A stretch of DNA of 32,715 nt from Mangrovimonas sp. Its GTDB lineage: Bacteria > Bacteroidota > Bacteroidia > Flavobacteriales > Flavobacteriaceae. Shown in pieces: positions 10,953-20,940 of the stretch (positions are counted from its first letter, which is position 1; every line of letters starts with the position of its first letter). The position numbers were made by a program, and so were the translations under genes. The notes under the pieces are model-generated. The model saw nothing but the letters and a program-made list of their open reading frames with translations, did no database searches and was not told where the DNA came from. The stretch is from NCBI GenBank assembly GCA_020435705.1, contig JAGQZG010000008.1:1-32715 (forward strand), in the 5' to 3' direction.

Positions 10953-11795
10953 TTAGCCTTTATTTGATTTCTTATACAGAAGATTGAGCATCAAGCCAAT
11001 AATAATTAAGGCAATTCCCAGTAGGCTCCACACCGAGTAAGCTTCACCAAAAAACGACACGCCCACCAATAGGGTAAACACCACTTCCATATACTTGATG
11101 GGTGCCACTTTATTGACACTGGCAATCTGTAAAGCTTTGGTCATATACAGCTGGCCAAAAAAACCATAAACACCCATACTTAACAGAGGTAAATAATCCT
11201 CTGATTCAGGGGTTTTCCAGTTAAATAATGCGGCCAAACCGCCAACCACGGCAGTTACCATCATGAAATGATTCACAATAGTGTACGGATGCTCTTTGGT
11301 ACCTATTTTACTAATACTGATATAAACAAAACCAGAGAAAACAGCCGAGGCCAAAATAATGCCTAAGCCTATGAGATTCATTTCAAGATCGGCATATCTG
11401 AGAATGATTACCCCGGAAAATGCAATGATGAAAAAGACCCAACGAATGGGTATGATTTTTTCCTTCAGCAGAAAAATAGAAAAGATAGCTGCAAAAATAG
11501 GCGAGAGATAACGAAGCGTAACCGCAGTTCCAACAGGCAAATAATGTAAGGAAGTAAAAAATAATGTCATGGAAGTCAACCCTGCGAACGAGCGGATAAA
11601 CAGCAATTTTTTATGCGTTCCCCAAATGGTTACTTTGTTCCGAAGTAAATAAGTGAGCGTAAAAACCAATGTCCCCAACGCACGAAAAAACACCATTTGG
11701 AAAGCGTTGTAGTCTGCCATTTTCTTTGCCGTGACATTCATGAGTGTAAAGGCAAGGGCGCTTATGAGCATGTAGGAAATGGCCTTTTTTATCAT
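10953..11795 (-). CDS. DMT-superfamily transporter, EamA domains
   Basis: A 280-residue inner-membrane protein with about ten hydrophobic helices arranged as two EamA halves (about 1-135 and 145-275). Typical features are the N-terminal AFTLMNVTAKK segment, the GTAVTLRYLSPIFAAIFSIFLLKEK stretch (split here only for description: GTAVTLRYLSPIF then LLKEK) and the matching second-half PIKYMEVVFTLLVGV and FGEAYS. Family members export amino acids, metabolites or other small solutes; the substrate cannot be read from sequence. It is divergent from the MATE gene, with a 120-bp shared upstream region. The basic tail YKKSNKG is ordinary. Confidence 0.92.
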   Translation of the reverse strand: MIKKAISYMLISALAFTLMNVTAKKMADYNAFQMVFFRALGTLVFTLTYLLRNKVTIWGTHKKLLFIRSFAGLTSMTLFFTSLHYLPVGTAVTLRYLSPIFAAIFSIFLLKEKIIPIRWVFFIIAFSGVIILRYADLEMNLIGLGIILASAVFSGFVYISISKIGTKEHPYTIVNHFMMVTAVVGGLAALFNWKTPESEDYLPLLSMGVYGFFGQLYMTKALQIASVNKVAPIKYMEVVFTLLVGVSFFGEAYSVWSLLGIALIIIGLMLNLLYKKSNKG

Positions 11796-11915: not shown

Positions 11916-13292
11916 ATGCAATTAGCACAGTACACTAAAGAATTCAGTTACAATTGGAAACTTGCTGCCCCCGTTATGTTGGGCATGTTAGGCCACACTT
12001 TTGTGGGGTTTATAGACAACATTATGGTAGGGCAATTGGGTTCGGCTGAATTGGCAGCGGTGTCTTTAGGGAACAGCTTTATGTTTATCGCTATGTCCTT
12101 GGGCATTGGCTTTTCAACGGCTATTACCCCTTTGGTGGCTGCCGCTGATGCTTCCCATGATTTCAAGGCTGGAAAATCGGCTTTTAAACATGGCCTGTTT
12201 CTTTGTACGGTTTTGGGGATTTCCTTGTTCTTGATGGTTTATTTTGCTAAACCTTTAATGTATTTGATGAAACAACCCCAAGAAGTGGTAGAGTTAGCCA
12301 TTCCTTATCTGGATTTAGTTGCTTTTTCTTTGATACCGTTGGTCTTTTTTCAGGGGTTTAAGCAATTTAGTGATGGTTTGTCCTTGACCAAATTCCCTAT
12401 GTACGCCACCCTTTTGGCCAATGTGGTGAATGTGGTTCTCAACTATTTGCTCATCTTTGGAAAGCTGGGCTTTCCGGAATTAGGTATTGTAGGTGCTGCT
12501 TACGGAACCTTGGCCTCCCGTTTTGCCATGGTTGCCTTGTTGTGGTATTTGTTGAGAATAAACGAAAAAGCAAGACCTTTTGTAACGGGTATCAAGTTTT
12601 TTGAACTGAGTAAATCCATGCTGAAGAAGATTATGCTTTTAGGTGCACCAAGTGCCATGCAGATGTTTTTTGAAGTGGCTATTTTTACTGCCGCTATTTG
12701 GTTGAGCGGTTTGTTGGGCAAGAACCCACAAGCGGCTAATCAGATTGCGTTAAACCTTTCGTCTATGACGTTTATGGTCGCTATGGGCTTAAGTGTAGCT
12801 TCCATGATTCGGGTGGGCAATCAAAACGGACTTAAGAATTATACAGAATTACGCCGCATAGCTTATTCCATTTTTTTGATGGGAATTTTGTTTGCTTTTT
12901 GTTTTGCCATTATGTTTTTGGTTTTGCACAACCAGTTTCCCAAACTTTATTTGGATGTGAATGATATTGAAAACGCAATGGACAACCAAGAAGTGATTTC
13001 CATTGCATCAAAATTGCTGTTGGCTGCTGCCGTTTTTCAGTTGAGCGATAGTTTGCAAGTAATTATTTTAGGTGCCCTGCGGGGCTTACAAGATGTGAAA
13101 ATCCCAACACTTTTTACGTTTATAGCCTATTGGATGATTGGTTTTCCTATTAGCTTTTATTTGGGTAAAGAAGAAGCTATGGGGAGTTTGGGTATTTGGA
13201 TAGGACTTTTGGCGGGATTGACTTCAGCTGCAATTTTACTCTATTTTAGGTTTAATTATCTCACAAAACGTTTAATTTTACAGAAAGCATAG
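11916..13292 (+). CDS. MATE family efflux transporter
   Basis: A 458-residue, twelve-helix inner-membrane antiporter of the MATE (NorM-like) family. It couples Na+ or H+ entry to export of cationic compounds. The N-terminal signature KLAAPVMLGMLGHTFVGFID followed by NIMVGQLGSAELAAVSLGN is characteristic. The second half repeats the fold, with the GAPSAMQMFFEVAIF and DSLQVIILGALRGLQD segments. Substrate is unknown. The ATG at 11916 preserves the usual amphipathic N-terminus and no nearby alternative fits. It heads a plus-strand operon with the 75-residue protein (4 bp gap) and the PAP2 phosphatase (1 bp gap). Confidence 0.96.
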   Translation: MQLAQYTKEFSYNWKLAAPVMLGMLGHTFVGFIDNIMVGQLGSAELAAVSLGNSFMFIAMSLGIGFSTAITPLVAAADASHDFKAGKSAFKHGLFLCTVLGISLFLMVYFAKPLMYLMKQPQEVVELAIPYLDLVAFSLIPLVFFQGFKQFSDGLSLTKFPMYATLLANVVNVVLNYLLIFGKLGFPELGIVGAAYGTLASRFAMVALLWYLLRINEKARPFVTGIKFFELSKSMLKKIMLLGAPSAMQMFFEVAIFTAAIWLSGLLGKNPQAANQIALNLSSMTFMVAMGLSVASMIRVGNQNGLKNYTELRRIAYSIFLMGILFAFCFAIMFLVLHNQFPKLYLDVNDIENAMDNQEVISIASKLLLAAAVFQLSDSLQVIILGALRGLQDVKIPTLFTFIAYWMIGFPISFYLGKEEAMGSLGIWIGLLAGLTSAAILLYFRFNYLTKRLILQKA

Positions 13293-13525: not shown

Positions 13526-14104
13526 ATGCTGGAAAAAATACTGCAATACGATACCGATCTTTTTCTCTATCTCAACAACTTGGGTACCGAGACTTGGGAT
13601 GGTTTTTGGATGTTTTACACGACCAAGTTCTATTGGATTCCGTTGTATGCCGTTTTGGTTTACTTGATATATAAAAAATTCACCAGAAAACAATTTATCC
13701 TTATCCTTTTGTTGGCTGCTTTTATGGTCACATTTACGGATCAGGTAACCAATCTTTTCAAGCATGGATTGGAACGTTTACGCCCTTGTCATAATGAAGA
13801 TCTAGCAGGTTTAATGCGGTTGGTGAAAAGCAGTTGTGGTGGTAGGTATGGTTTCTTTTCCGGACATGCATCCAACTCCATGTCAGTGGCCTTTTTTACA
13901 GGGTTCATGCTTAAAAAAAACTACAGATATATTTTCCCGCTACTTTTTATTTGGGCCTTCTTTATGGGCTATAGCCGAATATACATTGGAGTGCATTACC
14001 CTTTGGATGTATTTTGTGGGATGTGTTTTGGCGCCATTTCAGGCTACGGATTCTATCGTTTGTTCAAATACTTGAGTGTGAAATTGTTGCACGTTACTTT
14101 TTAG
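13526..14104 (+). CDS. PAP2-family membrane phosphatase
   Basis: A 192-residue integral-membrane phosphatase of the PAP2 superfamily. All three catalytic motifs are present: KHGLERLRP (Lys79-Pro87, the K-x6-RP motif), SGH (112-114), and SRIYIGVHYPLD (Ser150-Asp161, with the nucleophilic His157). Five or six transmembrane helices surround an active site that faces the periplasm in related enzymes. Substrates in the family include undecaprenyl pyrophosphate, phosphatidic acid, PGP and lipid A phosphate (LpxE/LpxF type). It is the last gene of the MATE operon and overlaps the convergent GT39 gene by 11 bp. The neighbourhood suggests an envelope-lipid substrate, but this is inference. Confidence 0.95.
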   Translation: MLEKILQYDTDLFLYLNNLGTETWDGFWMFYTTKFYWIPLYAVLVYLIYKKFTRKQFILILLLAAFMVTFTDQVTNLFKHGLERLRPCHNEDLAGLMRLVKSSCGGRYGFFSGHASNSMSVAFFTGFMLKKNYRYIFPLLFIWAFFMGYSRIYIGVHYPLDVFCGMCFGAISGYGFYRLFKYLSVKLLHVTF

Positions 14105-15716
14105 TTAGAATATAATATTTGGCCACTAAGCGGTCATTGTATTTTCTGGAGCTAATACTCACTTCATTTAAATCATAAATAGCTTTTTCCTCCATAGTGT
14201 AAAGGGTTTTTAAGGAAGCTTCTTCCTCAGGGCTTAAGTTATTGGCCAGTAAACCAAAGGTTGCATCAGAAGGATAGGCCACAACGCCATCATCTGATTT
14301 TATAGCTTGGATTTTAGTGCCATATTGCCATAGCATTTCAGGGGAAATAGAGCTAAAACTATAAATGTTCAAAGACTGTTCGGTTTTTAATGACGAAATT
14401 GGATTGTAATTATCGCTTAGAAACATTTGTTTTAGCGGAGTAGCTGTCAGCAAAACTGAACCAAAAAACAAAACAGTATACAAAAAGACCTGTTTCATTT
14501 CGCCTTTCAACAACTGGTAAAATAGCATTGCGCCGATGCCAAAAAGAACACTGCTGGCAACGATAAAGTTAGCCCAATAGCCATCTAGATGGTCTTTCAA
14601 CATAAAATAGCCCATAAAGGGAAAGAGTATCCCAATGAAGGCAATCAGGCCAAAATTGAAAAGCACTGGAATTTTTTCGCCTTTTTTCAAGGATTTAAAA
14701 TGACTGATTAGATACTCAACATAAAACCCAATGTTTAAAGCCAACGGAATGAGTACGGGCATTAAGTAACGGGACTTCTTTTCGGGAATTAAAGACAAAA
14801 GAAGCACCGAAAACACCGTCCAGAAAAAGGATAGTTTGTAGGCTTTTACGTTGGAAACCCTTGATTTCATGTAAGGATATAGCAAACTCACAAACGCTGG
14901 AATGGTCCAAATTCCGCTTTGGGTAAAAAAGCTCCAATAGTAATAAAATGGACGTACGTTGTAGCTTGCCCAGTTGCCCGTTTCCTTTTCGGCAATGGCA
15001 TGGAATGTATCCGGGTCAAGCCATCTCACGGCAACATACCAACTTCCGCCAACAATCAAAGCAATAAAGATAATGGCCAAAACCGAAAGCCATTTCGATT
15101 TAAAATAATTGTATTTATAACTAAAACCGTAAGCAATCAAAAAAGGTAAAAACAAGGCGTACATTGAGATAGGGCCTTTGGAAAGAAAAGAAAATCCCAT
15201 AAAAATTCCCGCCAACCAAATATGCTTTGGTCTAATAATAAGCTTGTTAAAAACTTGAAAGAGATAGTAAATTGCTACCATCATAAACGCATGGGTGTAG
15301 ATATCCCAAGGTGCTTCTAAGACGATTCCAATCACATAGAAGGACGTAGCGCAAATAAATCCATTTCTTAAACTGTGCTCTTGGTTCAGTTCTAGTTTCA
15401 ATGAGAATTTATAAACAAACGTACACAAAAGCATAATCATAATAACTGCTGGCAGGCGCATTCCAAAAACACTTTGGAATCCAAAAAGGATTCCTGATAA
15501 GGCTGTTAACCAAGTAGGTAAAGGAGGTTTTTCATATCTCGCTTCACCGTTCATGGTCGTGAGTAGCCAATGTCCATCGGAAATCATTTCCCTGGCCGTA
15601 ATGAAATTGCGAGCTTCCATAATGGACACTTGGATTACGTTCAAATTAGGAAGTAGGATAATCCCAATAAACAAGCATAAACTTAGAACGGGATAGGATT
15701 TTATGAGTTTGCCCAT
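14094..15716 (-). CDS. GT39/ArnT-like GT-C glycosyltransferase
   Basis: A 540-residue polytopic membrane enzyme with about twelve helices in the first 430 residues and a C-terminal periplasmic segment. The first periplasmic loop contains IMEARNFITAREM (Glu34 is the likely catalytic acidic residue) and NGEARYEKPPLPTWL (56-70). These are the hallmarks of the ArnT/PMT group, which transfers a sugar from a polyprenyl-phosphate carrier to lipid A, protein or another acceptor on the periplasmic side. Its start overlaps the tandem LAB_N gene by 16 bp, third in an operon GT2-LAB_N-GT39. Donor and acceptor are unknown; lipid A or another envelope glycolipid is inferred from context. Confidence 0.93.
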   Translation of the reverse strand: MGKLIKSYPVLSLCLFIGIILLPNLNVIQVSIMEARNFITAREMISDGHWLLTTMNGEARYEKPPLPTWLTALSGILFGFQSVFGMRLPAVIMIMLLCTFVYKFSLKLELNQEHSLRNGFICATSFYVIGIVLEAPWDIYTHAFMMVAIYYLFQVFNKLIIRPKHIWLAGIFMGFSFLSKGPISMYALFLPFLIAYGFSYKYNYFKSKWLSVLAIIFIALIVGGSWYVAVRWLDPDTFHAIAEKETGNWASYNVRPFYYYWSFFTQSGIWTIPAFVSLLYPYMKSRVSNVKAYKLSFFWTVFSVLLLSLIPEKKSRYLMPVLIPLALNIGFYVEYLISHFKSLKKGEKIPVLFNFGLIAFIGILFPFMGYFMLKDHLDGYWANFIVASSVLFGIGAMLFYQLLKGEMKQVFLYTVLFFGSVLLTATPLKQMFLSDNYNPISSLKTEQSLNIYSFSSISPEMLWQYGTKIQAIKSDDGVVAYPSDATFGLLANNLSPEEEASLKTLYTMEEKAIYDLNEVSISSRKYNDRLVAKYYILTKK

Positions 15717-16336
15717 TTTTCCATTTTGTTTAATAAAACGAGATTTCTAACATAAATAATAGCGCCCAAAAGATGACCAACGAAAAGTACGGGGTCTCTT
15801 CTGAAAATGGCATAAATCAAGATGAGAGATGATCCTATTAAGCTTAAAAGCCAAAACCCAAAGGGTAGGATGGATTCTTTTGCCCTTTCAGAATAAATCC
15901 ATTGGTAGATAAACCGTAAGGTGAAAACCACCTGCGATATAATGCCCAGCACCAGCAACCAAAGTGGGATTTTTTCATTCTTGAACAATAGTGTGACGTC
16001 TATGGTGTTATTGTTAAAATAATAAATAACTACAAATGTGGGGATTAACAAGATGAGCCATTGCAAAACCACGTGTATTTTTTGCCATTGGTTTTGTAAC
16101 TGCAAATTTCTAATGTAGATAAAATAGGTAAGGGCTTGTCCTAACATTATTGCAAAATCTTCCCTTAGATAACCATAGATAAACAAAAGAAATGAAGCAA
16201 TCAGGCTCAATACCCAAAACAGGCTAGGGGTAATAACCTTACGCTGCTTTTCAGACGTAATCCATTGGATGATTAATCGTGAGGAGAATAATGTCTGAGC
16301 AATAAAACCTACCGTAAAAACGATCCAGTTGTTCAT
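15701..16336 (-). CDS. Tandem LAB_N-domain membrane protein, candidate flippase
   Basis: A 211-residue membrane protein made of two copies of the domain found at the N-terminus of some lipid-A-disaccharide synthases (LAB_N). The copies span about 9-80 and 130-201. By hand alignment at a constant 121-residue offset, 32 positions are identical. The shared pattern is G-x-I-x-Q-x-x-F-x-x-R-x-x-x-QWI-x-SE, then P-x-x-FW-x-LSLI, then LxxIY-x-x-x-R-x-D, then G-x(6)-IY-x-RNL. Each copy has three hydrophobic helices, and an extra helix (about 87-107) links them, giving 3+1+3. No LpxB catalytic domain is present. It overlaps GT2 by 4 bp (ATGA) and GT39 by 16 bp. Its position equals that of GtrA or ArnE/F, so carrier-linked sugar translocation is proposed, not shown. 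Confidence 0.85.
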   Translation of the reverse strand: MNNWIVFTVGFIAQTLFSSRLIIQWITSEKQRKVITPSLFWVLSLIASFLLFIYGYLREDFAIMLGQALTYFIYIRNLQLQNQWQKIHVVLQWLILLIPTFVVIYYFNNNTIDVTLLFKNEKIPLWLLVLGIISQVVFTLRFIYQWIYSERAKESILPFGFWLLSLIGSSLILIYAIFRRDPVLFVGHLLGAIIYVRNLVLLNKMEKWANS

Positions 16337-17049
16337 GAACTCTTTTTGGCCACTTCGTAATTAATGTACTTCTTTTTCATCCATAAGTAGGCAAAGCAAT
16401 CCATTAACGGGCCTAGCAATCGATTCCAAAGGCCAAACTTGGCCGTTCCTGCAATACGAGGGAAATGTTGCACAGGAATTTGGGTTATTTTGCCGTTTTG
16501 GAGAAGAATCATGGCAGGGAGAAAGCGATGCAATCCTTTAAACATGGGAATGCGTTTGGCATATGAGGCTTTGATTACTTTTAGTGGGCAGCCTGTATCG
16601 TCCATACCATCATGGGTAAAAGCTCTTCGGATACCATTGGCAATTTTAGAAGACATGTTTTTTACAAAACTATCTTTGCGATTGGCCCGGACACCGGTTA
16701 CCAAATCATACTCATCTATGTGTTCCAGAAGCAAATTGAAATCTTCAGGAGTCGTTTGTAAATCAGAATCAATATACCCAATCAATTCAGTATCAGCATG
16801 GTCAAAACCAGCTTTTATTGCGGCACTTAGCCCAGCATTTTTCTTAAAACTTATATAAGTGAAGTCAGGATTTCGGGTGCAAATTTCTTCAATGAGTTCC
16901 TGACTTTTGTCCTTGGAACCATCATTGACAAACAAAACTTTGGCTTTTCTGGATGCAATAGTTAAGTAGTTCGTCAGTTCTGTTTCAACCCGTTTCAGGT
17001 TATCTTCTTCATTATATACAGGGATAACAATGGTAAATTGGTATTGCAT
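16333..17049 (-). CDS. GT2 polyprenyl-phosphate glycosyltransferase (DPM1/ArnC-like)
   Basis: A 238-residue GT-A enzyme. It begins with FTIVIPVYNEEDNL, has the nucleotide-binding FVNDGS (40-45) and the metal-binding DSD (94-96) in GYIDSDLQTTPED. HRFLPAM and the later GLWNR stretch are typical of dolichol-phosphate-mannose synthase, GtrB and ArnC relatives. Unlike GtrB and ArnC it has no pair of C-terminal transmembrane helices, so it resembles the compact DPM1 form and would be peripheral to the membrane. Predicted role: transfer of a sugar from a nucleotide donor to undecaprenyl phosphate on the cytosolic face. It is the first gene of the operon, divergent from the epimerase gene across 91 bp. 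Confidence 0.93.
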   Translation of the reverse strand: MQYQFTIVIPVYNEEDNLKRVETELTNYLTIASRKAKVLFVNDGSKDKSQELIEEICTRNPDFTYISFKKNAGLSAAIKAGFDHADTELIGYIDSDLQTTPEDFNLLLEHIDEYDLVTGVRANRKDSFVKNMSSKIANGIRRAFTHDGMDDTGCPLKVIKASYAKRIPMFKGLHRFLPAMILLQNGKITQIPVQHFPRIAGTAKFGLWNRLLGPLMDCFAYLWMKKKYINYEVAKKSS

Positions 17050-17073
17050 ACAAAAACTGTTATTTCAGCAAAG

Positions 17074-17094
17074 GTATTCTTTTTTAAAGAATAC
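17074..17094. promoter_or_regulatory. Inverted repeat between divergent GT2 and epimerase genes
   Basis: Perfect 9-bp arms GTATTCTTT (17074-17082) and AAAGAATAC (17086-17094) with a 3-bp spacer TTT. It lies 25 bp from the GT2 start and 46 bp from the epimerase start. The geometry fits an operator for a dimeric regulator or a hairpin in either 5' leader. No TAnnTTTG element was found nearby on either strand. Confidence 0.4.
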
Positions 17095-17140
17095 AATTTC
17101 TTTACCAAAAAAAATGTTTCTTTGTAAGAGATACTCAAAA

Positions 17141-18082
17141 ATGAAAATACTAGTTACTGGAGCAGCCGGTTTTATCGCTTCGCACACCTGTGAACGTTTA
17201 AAAGCCTTAGGATATGAGGTTGTTGGTTTAGATAATTTCTCGCCTTATTACAGTCTGGAATTAAAAAAACTAAACGAAAAAGCCTTAAATTCTATAGGTG
17301 TTGATATTATTAATGCCGATTTAAGAACTGATGCTCTCAATGAGATTCTCCCTCATGATCTTGACTATATTATACATTATGCAGCTCAACCGGGTATTTC
17401 GGCAACATCATCTTTTGAAGATTATTTCTCAAATAATATTATTGCAACAAAGAATCTTTTGGATTTTGCTTTGAGATTAATAGACTTGAAATTGTTTGTA
17501 AATATTGCAACGTCGTCTATTTATGGTCTGGAAGCCACATATCCTGAAGATAGGGCGCCCAAACCAGCGTCACATTATGGTGTTACTAAATTGGCCGCCG
17601 AGCAGCTAGTTCTCCAAAAAAGCAGGGAAAAACAATTAAAAGCTTGCTCGTTGCGCTTATATTCGGTATTTGGACCAAGGGAACGACCTGAAAAAATGTA
17701 TACCAAACTTATTGCTTGTGCTTTTAATAATGAAGCTTTTCCTTTATATGAAGGTAGCGAGAAGCACTTGCGTAGTTTTACCTATGTTGATGATATTGTT
17801 GATGGCGTCATAAGTGTGCTTGGTAAGGAAGAAGCTGTTGATGGGGAAGTCATTAATCTAGGCACCGAAGTAGAACACACCACACAAGAAGGTATTGATG
17901 CGGTGGAAAAAGTGTTGGGTATGAAACTTAAAATCAATAAAGTTCCGGCAAGAGCTGGAGATCAATTAAGAACCAAGGCCAACATAGACAAAGCCAAGAA
18001 ATTGCTCAATTACAATCCGCAAACTACTCTTATTGAGGGGGTTAAAAAGCAAGTAGCTTGGTATAAGGAAAACTTCCTTTAG
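17141..18082 (+). CDS. NAD-dependent sugar-nucleotide epimerase/dehydratase
   Basis: A 313-residue extended short-chain dehydrogenase. The Rossmann motif is TGAAGFIAS (the usual last Gly is Ala here). ATSSIYG, the catalytic HYGVTK (Tyr and Lys of YxxxK) and RLYSVFGPRERPEKM are all in place, as in UDP-glucose/UDP-glucuronate 4-epimerases and related dehydratases. The exact sugar cannot be read. I chose the ATG at 17141 because MKILVTGAAGF is the canonical N-terminus; an open frame extends upstream to 17030 but has no homologous content and would overlap the GT2 start. The gene is divergent from the GT2 operon and may supply its donor sugar. Its stop overlaps the convergent lipid kinase stop by 4 bp. 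Confidence 0.93.
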   Translation: MKILVTGAAGFIASHTCERLKALGYEVVGLDNFSPYYSLELKKLNEKALNSIGVDIINADLRTDALNEILPHDLDYIIHYAAQPGISATSSFEDYFSNNIIATKNLLDFALRLIDLKLFVNIATSSIYGLEATYPEDRAPKPASHYGVTKLAAEQLVLQKSREKQLKACSLRLYSVFGPRERPEKMYTKLIACAFNNEAFPLYEGSEKHLRSFTYVDDIVDGVISVLGKEEAVDGEVINLGTEVEHTTQEGIDAVEKVLGMKLKINKVPARAGDQLRTKANIDKAKKLLNYNPQTTLIEGVKKQVAWYKENFL

Positions 18083-18966
18083 GCTTTTACAATAACTTTC
18101 AAGGCCTTTTCCAGAACTTTAACGCTTGCCTTATTGGTTTCAAAGGGTTTAATTTCACCATCTATTTGGAAAAAACTTGGGTTGGAAATCAAAAACTCAG
18201 TTTCTATAGACTTTATTTTTAGTTGAAGAAACTTTTTGATTTTTTTGTGTTGCTTAAACAATATTTTCAGTCCCAATAGCATGATTTTTCTTTTGGGTAA
18301 TTCAGGTATCACCACAAGATCCAATAAACCATCATTCAATTTGGCAGTTGGTGTTAAACCAACACCATACCCCATTTGATTGGAATTTGAAACAAAAAGC
18401 ATAAAGGGTTTGCAGGAAAAAATATGATTCTCATAAGAGACTTTTGAAATGAATTCATAACGGTAAGCTTTAAATGCTCTTATGGTTGATAGAAAATAGG
18501 AACTAAACTTTCTGCTACCTGAGTTTTCATAAACCTTCAAAACTTCCGAATCAAATCCCCAACCACAATTACTGAAAAAATAGAAGTCGTTACACTGGCC
18601 AACATCTATAAAAGTATAACTTTCATTTTTAATCAAGGCAATAGCTTTTTTGAGATCTTGAGGTATTTTTAGGTGATTTGCCAGACCATTTCCAGAACCC
18701 ATTGGGATAATACCTAAAGCTACCTTGGAATTCACCAAACTTGACGAGACTTCATTGATAGTGCCATCTCCACCACAAGCCACAATAATATCAGCACCTT
18801 CCTCTATAGAGTCTTTACTTAGTTGTACGGCGTGGAATTTATGGGTTGTATATTTAATTTTTAAATCATAGCTGTCTCTTGGAAAGTTATCTGAGAGAAA
18901 ATTGAGGTCAATGTTATTTTGCCCTGATCCAGAGATAGGATTTATTATAAAATGAATATGTTTCAA
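18079..18966 (-). CDS. Diacylglycerol kinase-family lipid kinase (YegS/DgkB-like)
   Basis: A 295-residue lipid kinase. The N-terminal catalytic domain shows HFIINPISGSG, the nucleotide loop CGGDGTINEV (64-73) and GSGNGLA (90-96). The C-terminal beta-sandwich carries LLDLVVIPELPKR and FQIDGEI. Members phosphorylate diacylglycerol, phosphatidylglycerol or sphingoid-type lipids; Bacteroidota make sphingolipids, so the substrate is open. The start is TTG at 18966: the codon immediately upstream in frame is the TAA stop of the previous gene, and the glycine-rich motif comes within 15 residues, so no other start is possible. This TAATTG junction suggests termination-reinitiation coupling to the LtaS-like transferase. 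Confidence 0.92.
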   Translation of the reverse strand: MKHIHFIINPISGSGQNNIDLNFLSDNFPRDSYDLKIKYTTHKFHAVQLSKDSIEEGADIIVACGGDGTINEVSSSLVNSKVALGIIPMGSGNGLANHLKIPQDLKKAIALIKNESYTFIDVGQCNDFYFFSNCGWGFDSEVLKVYENSGSRKFSSYFLSTIRAFKAYRYEFISKVSYENHIFSCKPFMLFVSNSNQMGYGVGLTPTAKLNDGLLDLVVIPELPKRKIMLLGLKILFKQHKKIKKFLQLKIKSIETEFLISNPSFFQIDGEIKPFETNKASVKVLEKALKVIVKA

Positions 18967-20940
18967 TTAGTCTAACTTAAGTTTGCCTTCATGGTATAAA
19001 TAATCAGCTGTTTGATAAAGCGATATGGCCTTTTTTAAATTCAAGGAATCAGTGGGTTGCGGAAGCAAACTGTCTGTTTCTTGTTGCCAAAAAAACTGAT
19101 TGCTTTGTTTTTGCTCACTTAGAATAGTTAGTTTATGAGCGGAATCCATATACCCTAATTTCCTGTAATTTCCCAACAAGGCACGTTGTTCCAACACAGG
19201 TGTTTCTAAGATATTCTGGCCATAGAAATTGGACTTGTAAACCCAGTTTAGCAGACCAAATAATGTTGGGAGAACATCTATTTGAGAAGCTAGGGCACTT
19301 ACTTTCATGGGATCTTTATTAGGGAAATTGTAGATCATTCCCACGATTTGATATTTATCTACATCAATGGCCCAACGCCCCGCACTGCTGGCACAATGAT
19401 CGGATACAATAATGAAAACGGTATGTTCAAACCAAGGTTTGTTTCGAGCTTTATTGAAGAACTCTTTTAGGGCATAATCTGTATATTTCACTGCCCCAGC
19501 TCTGTTTTTTCCAGAGGGAATATCAACTTTCCCATCAGGATAGGTAAATGGTTTGTGATTGGAGGTTGTCATAACAAAATCAAAAAAAGGCGTTTTAGAA
19601 ACGAAGTTTTTATCTGCTTCGGTCATTACTTTGTTGTATAGATCCTCATCGCAAACTCCCCACGCATTTTCAAAACTCACCTCGTTATCTTGGATGCTTT
19701 GGTGCTGGGTGCTGATGGATTCTTCTTCAAAAAAACCTCTACTTCTGTCAACTATATTAAAACCACTACTGCCAAAAAAATAGTTCATGTTATCAAAATA
19801 CCCATCGCCGCCATAAAAAAAAGTATTCTTATAGCCCTTTTCGGCAAAAACATTCCCTATGGTAAATAAATGGTCGCTGTTTGTCCTTTTGATAATACTT
19901 CTTCCAGGTGTTGGTGGAACCGAAAGCATTAAAGCCTCCATACCTCTCACGGTTCTAGTACCAGTGGCGTACAGATTTTCAAAGAAAATGCTTTCTTGTG
20001 CCAGGCTATCAAGAAATGGGGTTATGTTGTAATCTCCACCCAAGCTATTTAGAAGCTTTCCGCTCAAGCTCTCTACGCAAATGAGTATCACATTAGGTTT
20101 GATGCTTTGGTTTAAACTATCCTGATTTTTGACGAAGCGTTTTATTGAGAATGAATCACCAAGCAAACTATCCGAAGGCTTAACTACAAGCTTTTGGGTT
20201 ATACCAAAAGCTTCTTTATTGCTTAGACTATTATAAAATTGTAGATAGGATAGTTCATTATTTTTGAATGCCGAAAAGAACGAATAAATACCGGATTTGG
20301 CCAGCTCGTTGTTGTACCTGTTGTCAAATCGTTCGGCATCTTTATTATTAACAAACCAATAGTAGACCAAGGCGATGATAAGTAAAAACAGGGAGGTTGA
20401 AAAGCGGGTTTTTAGGTTCGTACTGCTTTTAAAAGCTTCTTTGAAAATACCTTTTTTGAAATGAATGAAAAAGTAAAGAGCAATAAGCAAAAAGATCCCT
20501 CCCAGTAAAATGGGTAAAGGATAGGATTCGTTTATATTTTTTACAACTTCATATGTGTAAATAAGATAATCTACGGCTATAAAATTGAACCTGCATTTAA
20601 ATTCGTCCCAAAAAGCAAGCTCTGCCAAGAATGAAAATAACGCAACAAACACCATAAACCCCATGAAGAAGTAGGTAAGGATCTTATCGGTAAGAGTTCC
20701 ATTCCATTTCTTTGGAAAAATCAAAAGATAGAAAGCATAGGGAAAAACAAAAAACGATAGTGTGCCTAAATCAAAAAAGAAACCTATCAGGAAGGTATAG
20801 AGCGTTTGCCCTAGGCCATGATTGTTGTCAGAAAAACTCCAAATGAATAGAACGAGTCTAATTAACAGAGAGGCTACCAGAAAGAATATTCCAAAACTCA
20901 TTAAAGGTGCATACCTATTCTTTAAAAAAAATCTTTGCAT
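18967..20940 (-). CDS. LTA synthase-like sulfatase-fold phosphotransferase
   Basis: A 657-residue membrane-anchored alkaline-phosphatase-superfamily protein. The first 200 residues hold five transmembrane helices; the extracytoplasmic domain runs from about 280. Active-site landmarks are Glu290 in ILICVES, the probable nucleophile Thr330 in ATGTRTVRG, and Asp514-His515 in IVSDHCA. These match the metal and nucleophile positions of LtaS and phosphoethanolamine transferases. In Gram-negatives such enzymes usually transfer phosphoethanolamine or phosphoglycerol from phospholipids to envelope glycans or lipid A, releasing diacylglycerol. The next gene is a lipid kinase that could recycle that product. 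The start codon is overlapped by a 22-bp palindrome. Confidence 0.94.
   Translation of the reverse strand: MQRFFLKNRYAPLMSFGIFFLVASLLIRLVLFIWSFSDNNHGLGQTLYTFLIGFFFDLGTLSFFVFPYAFYLLIFPKKWNGTLTDKILTYFFMGFMVFVALFSFLAELAFWDEFKCRFNFIAVDYLIYTYEVVKNINESYPLPILLGGIFLLIALYFFIHFKKGIFKEAFKSSTNLKTRFSTSLFLLIIALVYYWFVNNKDAERFDNRYNNELAKSGIYSFFSAFKNNELSYLQFYNSLSNKEAFGITQKLVVKPSDSLLGDSFSIKRFVKNQDSLNQSIKPNVILICVESLSGKLLNSLGGDYNITPFLDSLAQESIFFENLYATGTRTVRGMEALMLSVPPTPGRSIIKRTNSDHLFTIGNVFAEKGYKNTFFYGGDGYFDNMNYFFGSSGFNIVDRSRGFFEEESISTQHQSIQDNEVSFENAWGVCDEDLYNKVMTEADKNFVSKTPFFDFVMTTSNHKPFTYPDGKVDIPSGKNRAGAVKYTDYALKEFFNKARNKPWFEHTVFIIVSDHCASSAGRWAIDVDKYQIVGMIYNFPNKDPMKVSALASQIDVLPTLFGLLNWVYKSNFYGQNILETPVLEQRALLGNYRKLGYMDSAHKLTILSEQKQSNQFFWQQETDSLLPQPTDSLNLKKAISLYQTADYLYHEGKLKLD

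Follow-up and report, generated by a model that had tools for sequence, protein, structure and literature searches.

This locus raises the question of how a sugar loaded onto a carrier lipid may cross the membrane when the gene standing where GtrA or ArnE/F would be expected encodes a protein of another family. The DNA analysed (the window) is a stretch of 32,715 nucleotides from Mangrovimonas sp. (GenBank assembly GCA_020435705.1, contig JAGQZG010000008.1, positions 1 to 32,715), taken from a genome of 2.77 Mb that is 84% complete and whose closest relatives are Flavobacteriaceae (Bacteroidota), e.g. Lacinutrix and Bizionia. Three genes lie on its minus strand, namely a GT2 gene for a polyprenyl-phosphate sugar synthase of the DPM1/ArnC/GtrB type (16333..17049, 238 amino acids), a gene for a tandem LAB_N protein that is our flippase candidate (15701..16336, 211 amino acids) and a GT39 gene for an ArnT-like GT-C glycosyltransferase (14094..15716, 540 amino acids). 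Six-frame open reading frames confirm the overlaps given in the preliminary description of this DNA, which are 4 bp between GT2 and LAB_N (16333-16336) and 16 bp between LAB_N and GT39 (15701-15716). The answer towards which we lean is that the cassette encodes an Arn/Gtr/Rgt-like carrier-lipid glycosylation system in which the LAB_N protein, a member of the PQ-loop clan, takes on the flipping step for which other systems use GtrA or ArnE/F, probably acting on a uronic sugar.

Under this scheme, the cytosolic GT2 enzyme, which has no transmembrane helices, would use a UDP-sugar to charge undecaprenyl phosphate with the sugar, as its family suggests. The LAB_N protein (seven predicted transmembrane helices arranged 3-1-3, SWEET/PQ-loop clan) would bring the sugar-phosphate head group over to the leaflet facing the periplasm, and GT39 would move the sugar from the flipped lipid to an acceptor on the periplasmic face, for which lipid A or another glycolipid is the most likely choice. 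A uronic acid such as galacturonic acid (GalA) is the probable sugar, and it would be supplied via UDP-glucose dehydrogenase (UGD) and the neighbouring epimerase, as judged from the company these genes keep.

The two enzymes and the recurrence of the cassette

The GT2 protein, identified from its open reading frame with Pfam (Glycos_transf_2, 101.6 bits) and NCBIfam, carries a DxDLQ motif (YIDSDLQTTPED), and its closest solved relatives are ArnC (9bhc), GtrB (5eke and 5ekp) and DPMS (5mlz). With the GT2 domain, the motif and the kinship to solved synthases all present, it belongs to the polyprenyl-phosphate sugar synthase family (DPM1/GtrB/ArnC). The GT39 protein matches PMT (PF02366) at 24.5 bits against a cut-off of 22.7, while its relatives match PF13231 at 38-93 bits. 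The two enzymes had been described as ArnC-like and ArnT-like, which is upheld by their best NCBIfam matches, but not to the level of equivalogs (ArnC-type PRK10714, 108.8 bits against 529 required; ArnT PRK13279, 70.1 bits against 567 required). At the position of the N-terminal acidic DE motif the GT39 proteins of Bacteroidota and Ilyobacter show IMEARN or TSEARY (IMEARN...RYEKPP in the window), i.e. ME or SE with the Glu retained and the first Asp absent. The DE motif is present in Paracoccus GT39, and Aeromonas GT39 has ADEPRF.

A set of 80 related loci, mostly flavobacterial and some with short flanks, was picked by similarity to LAB_N in a genome collection. The LAB_N doublet was found in all 80, with a same-strand GT2 immediately upstream in 79 and GT39 directly downstream in 71; in 5 more a GT39-like match lies further on. 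Co-occurrence was counted in 296 evenly drawn Bacteroidota genomes, taking at least 178 bits for the short GT2 and at least 83 bits for the doublet. The short GT2 is present in 10 genomes and the doublet in 11, and 10 have both (hypergeometric P 9e-18, relatedness not corrected), the carriers coming from four families. Below the short-GT2 set the score of GT2 homologues falls to 150 bits, and these are long forms. Weak LAB_N matches elsewhere in Bacteroidota (20-34 bits) are single-domain proteins and were not counted as members of the trio; one of them checked in Pfam also matched PQ-loop, and GT2 or GT39 adjoins in 0 of the 6 with fetched flanks.

In one family of Bacteroidota (f8), where 30 of 148 genomes have the doublet, 12 genomes, each of a different genus, carry an in-frame LAB_N::GT39 fusion of 748-784 amino acids with GT2 just upstream. 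The fusion, for which the Pfam domain check was run on two members, has one origin (tree support 100/99) and is retained over long branches. Gene linkage, fusion and family matches together support the claim of a carrier-linked glycosylation cassette.

Outside Bacteroidota, where the evidence consists of plasmid-collection records, a single LAB_N domain sits in the same cassette in Alpha- and Gammaproteobacteria and Fusobacteriota. The order GT2-LAB_N-GT39 is seen in Azospirillum, Thalassospira, Ilyobacter, Aeromonas and Pelagovum (the third gene of Pelagovum is annotated as hypothetical and matches GT39). In Cetobacterium the order is GT2-LAB_N-epimerase-UGD-GT39, in Paracoccus LAB_N-GT39-GT2-epimerase, and on a Paenibacillus cellulosilyticus plasmid UGD-epimerase-GT2-LAB_N, with GT39 not found in the flanks. 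The same genes in a different order speak for a functional tie more than for common inheritance of one block. Paenibacillus is Gram-positive and has no lipid A, which makes LAB_N a misleading name and means that another acceptor must serve there. Two Hymenobacter plasmids are exceptions: LAB_N has a two-component system and a TolC/HlyD/RND efflux set as neighbours, no GT2 adjoins it, and GT39 and an epimerase are encoded on the opposite strand. In Hymenobacter HDW8 the annotation splits LAB_N into two single-domain genes. Genes of two-component systems are likewise found next to the cassette in Cetobacterium, Ilyobacter, Thalassospira and Paracoccus sp. TOH, and these neighbours suggest envelope-stress regulation. 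Since the single domain serves in the same cassette, the doublet is not the essential form. LAB_N had no match in phages, nor did the doublet profile match viral contigs; the single-domain query gave one match, on an IMG/VR contig of 8.8 kb whose LAB_N is 69% identical to that of Azospirillum and which is probably a bacterial fragment.

The LAB_N protein as flippase candidate

Pfam finds two LAB_N (PF07578) stretches in the middle protein, repeat 1 at 16100..16312 (102.7 bits) and repeat 2 at 15737..15949 (110.2 bits), both on the minus strand, with 197.8 bits for the whole protein against a cut-off of 26.7. Pfam places LAB_N in its MtN3-like clan (PMC4499210), and in NCBIfam the protein shows weak SemiSWEET matches. 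When profiles were compared with the PDB (E up to 1), all 7 matches of the doublet profile, built from 63 sequences, and all 8 of the half-domain profile were SemiSWEETs (best E 2.7e-4 and 2.8e-4, respectively). The AlphaFold2 model of the doublet (pLDDT 86) places helices at residues 3-31, 38-57 and 61-80, then 89-108, then 125-152, 159-179 and 182-210, i.e. 3-1-3, and that of the half domain (pLDDT 94.7) has three helices. Kinship with the transporter-clan (MtN3/PQ-loop, SWEET) proteins is supported by the sequence profiles and by the helix layout. By analogy with SemiSWEET and SWEET, two copies of the single-domain LAB_N would pair to form the working unit, which the Bacteroidota doublet would provide in fused form.

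The two halves have invariant charged and polar residues in common. R20 and R141 lie within the first helix of their halves, while E29, R76 and N77, and R58 and D60 with their partners in the second half, lie near both ends of the bundle, a pattern that would suit a phosphate-sugar head group. The loop charges favour an N-out, C-in orientation, with the loop after the sixth helix noisy. GT-C proteins of ArnT topology have a cytoplasmic N-terminus, and a LAB_N C-terminus in the cytoplasm would suit fusion to it. SemiSWEETs move free sugars, and the similarity to them also fits a protein that moves a free sugar or small solute in or out and keeps the company of glycosyltransferases for some other reason. 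We consider this highly improbable, as the logic of the system requires a lipid-linked donor across the membrane, the pocket differs (Arg for the proline of the PQ dipeptide; Gln or His for the Asn in the third transmembrane helix of the aligned SemiSWEETs), and the fusion joins LAB_N to a GT-C enzyme from a family using lipid-linked donors.

Several observations weigh against LAB_N as a flippase of this kind. The AlphaFold2 models superpose loosely on SWEET and SemiSWEET structures (Foldseek E at least 0.37, TM about 0.5 or less, rmsd 6-15 Å), which nonetheless lead the Foldseek lists with TM near 0.5 for the half domain. VIA-align ranks unrelated helical bundles above them, and its tables, which such bundles dominate, were not used as fold evidence. 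The PQ dipeptide itself is absent, the aligned positions holding the invariant Arg and a hydrophobic residue. The doublet also matches N-terminal residues 9-218 of the long LpxB model, an enzyme needing no flipping. About 10 of the 30 LAB_N-bearing genomes of the family with the fusion have doublets without a GT2 or GT39 neighbour, these adjoining a PG_1098-like methyltransferase or an HlyD/RND set with a GH3-family gene, and yet the orphans retain nearly all invariant residues, so that conservation alone is no proof of a lipid-sugar role. The link to GT2 and GT39 is hence not universal. Doublets lacking these partners had been named beforehand as evidence against the idea, and in about a third of the LAB_N-bearing genomes of this family they do occur, so that the objection holds in part. 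The orphans form one clade (98/88) in genomes without the short GT2 and look like a repurposed branch.

Last among these points, the GT2 has no membrane helices, and LAB_N could simply anchor it. As a membrane anchor or activating subunit, LAB_N would stand to GT2 as DPM2/DPM3 stand to DPM1, which they target to the membrane (PMC4281381), and the lipid would be flipped by something else. Consistent with this, no hydrophobic C-terminal segment was found in the GT2 (hydropathy maximum 0.73), and 0 of the 80 relatives reach 1.6 in the C-terminal part. The LAB_N-linked GT2s in the Bacteroidota sample are short (open frames of 241-285 amino acids), against mostly 315-374 for the remaining, ArnC/GtrB-type homologues, including those in genomes with orphan LAB_N; the LpxB match likewise places LAB_N with another membrane-associated glycosyltransferase. 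This is the main rival and a live one, though we regard it as less likely than flipping, for LAB_N is fused in 12 genera to GT39 and not to GT2, its fold clan consists of transporters and scramblases, and an anchor would hardly need two three-helix repeats that have invariant charged residues close to either face. The two roles are compatible and could coexist.

The proposal that LAB_N replaces GtrA or ArnE/F thus stands in part. The protein sits in that slot, belongs to a transporter clan and is fused to GT39 elsewhere; flipping is its predicted activity. GtrA (PF04138) was not found in the cassette nor in the window's own genome at its 84% completeness, and it occurs in just 1 of the 10 genomes with the trio, rarer than in the others but not significantly so (P 0.29). 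A literature search found no functional paper giving LAB_N/PF07578/COG3952 a flippase role. FlmX, cited in a review of SMR proteins among the lipid SMRs, was set aside as a precedent. A PQ-loop protein, Any1, is a lipid scramblase (PMC11893163). We find the interpretation plausible, and better supported than could be known from the letters of the window.

Donor sugar and neighbouring genes

Upstream of GT2, and across a divergent intergenic region that is placed by sequence and translation and presumed to be a shared promoter region (17050..17140), lies a nucleotide-sugar epimerase on the plus strand (17141..18082), the likely source of the donor. Its NAD-binding motif, MKILVTGAAGF, opens with the Met at 17141, and the gap to GT2 is 91 bp. 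Its best PDB matches are 6zl6 and sister entries, which we take to be BcUGAepi, a UDP-glucuronic acid (UDP-GlcA) 4-epimerase, with 5u4q and MoeE5 lower. A homologue is present in 31 of the 80 related loci, UGD is encoded in the window's own genome, and both UGD and epimerase stand beside the cassette in Cetobacterium, Paenibacillus, Paracoccus versutus and Aeromonas. From this gene company, our best guess at the donor is one that carries a hexuronic acid, e.g. UDP-GalA, with about an even chance of being right. For the epimerases of Cetobacterium and P. marcusii the nearest match is 5u4q, whose deposited name is dTDP-glucose 4,6-dehydratase, so other sugars are possible.

Convergent with GT39 is a PAP2 phosphatase gene on the plus strand (13526..14104; open reading frames, Pfam, NCBIfam), with a homologue in 46 of the 80 loci; by association it may be a carrier or lipid A phosphatase. 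Further along are a MATE-family transporter (11916-13292, on the strand opposite to the cassette) and an EamA protein (10953-11795), either of which could be the flippase, with LAB_N as an accessory. MATE proteins belong to the MOP superfamily, as do the Wzx flippases, and a MATE homologue is within the flanks of 31 of the 80 loci. It is missing from those of the other 49 (some flanks being short), an EamA homologue is in none of the 80, and LAB_N is the one within the operon and, elsewhere, fused to GT39, which makes this alternative quite improbable in our judgement. At 18079-20940 there are a YegS-type lipid kinase and an LtaS/phosphoglycerol-transferase-like protein of sulfatase fold, a possible pair for lipid or polyanion modification, each found again in just 1 of the 80 loci. 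A short putative lipoprotein built of Asp/Cys repeats is at 1103-1426.

Relation to known systems

The Arn system (ArnC, ArnE/F, ArnT; L-Ara4N, i.e. 4-amino-4-deoxy-L-arabinose, on lipid A) has the three roles in common with the cassette, whose GT2 is nearest ArnC in the PDB and GT39 nearest ArnT in NCBIfam, and two-component, epimerase or UGD genes lie near some cassettes. It differs in that the middle gene of the cassette is LAB_N, of the MtN3/PQ-loop clan, instead of an SMR pair (no SMR or EamA match was found in it by Pfam), its GT2 has no membrane helices, and both enzymes score far under the ArnC and ArnT equivalog cut-offs. ArnE/F are SMR proteins (PMC9574504). The Gtr system (GtrB, GtrA, Gtr; O-antigen modification) is likewise a three-gene operon with a small membrane protein beside the synthase, and the GT2 is related to GtrB sll0501, but LAB_N takes the place of GtrA, which is of LST family 2.A.129 (PMC7176098). 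The likeness to Rgt (RgtE, RgtD, RgtF; GalA on lipid A) is one of gene content: the expected sugar is GalA and donor genes for UDP-GlcA/GalA are nearby. Rgt has a carrier-lipid synthase and separate transferases, with no flippase named (PMC7663294).

In eukaryotes, DPM1, MPDU1 and the GT-C mannosyltransferases offer a GT2 without transmembrane helices, a PQ-loop protein of seven such helices needed for using monosaccharide-phosphate lipids, and GT-C enzymes. The kinship of LAB_N to MPDU1 is at the level of the clan, and the mechanism of MPDU1 is itself unresolved (PMC4281381). SemiSWEET and SWEET share with LAB_N the three-helix unit and the doublet with a linker helix, and are the sole solved-structure matches of its profiles; they differ by the invariant Arg in place of the PQ proline, the loose superposition and the glycosyltransferase genomic partners of LAB_N. 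The cassette appears to be a variant within the Arn/Gtr/Rgt kind of system, with a LAB_N mover not previously linked to this job. Tentatively, and at somewhat less than an even chance, LAB_N proteins may add one more family to the bacterial flippases of polyprenyl-phosphate sugars, next to GtrA and ArnE/F. This family would have the SWEET/PQ-loop fold, would come as a dimer in the manner of SemiSWEET or fused in that of SWEET, and would be to bacteria what MPDU1 is to the dolichol-phosphate-sugar pathway.

How monosaccharide-phosphate-polyprenol lipids are transferred across membranes is unsettled: ArnE/F and GtrA have been proposed for bacteria, and eukaryotes need MPDU1 for reasons not explained. 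A small protein of the PQ-loop clan linked to GT2 and GT-C enzymes by operon, reordered operons and fusion is a compact bacterial model for testing lipid-sugar flipping by that fold. Such a role for LAB_N would also correct the annotation 'lipid-A-disaccharide synthase N-terminal', a wrong name that these proteins bear in many genomes, that of the Gram-positive Paenibacillus among them.

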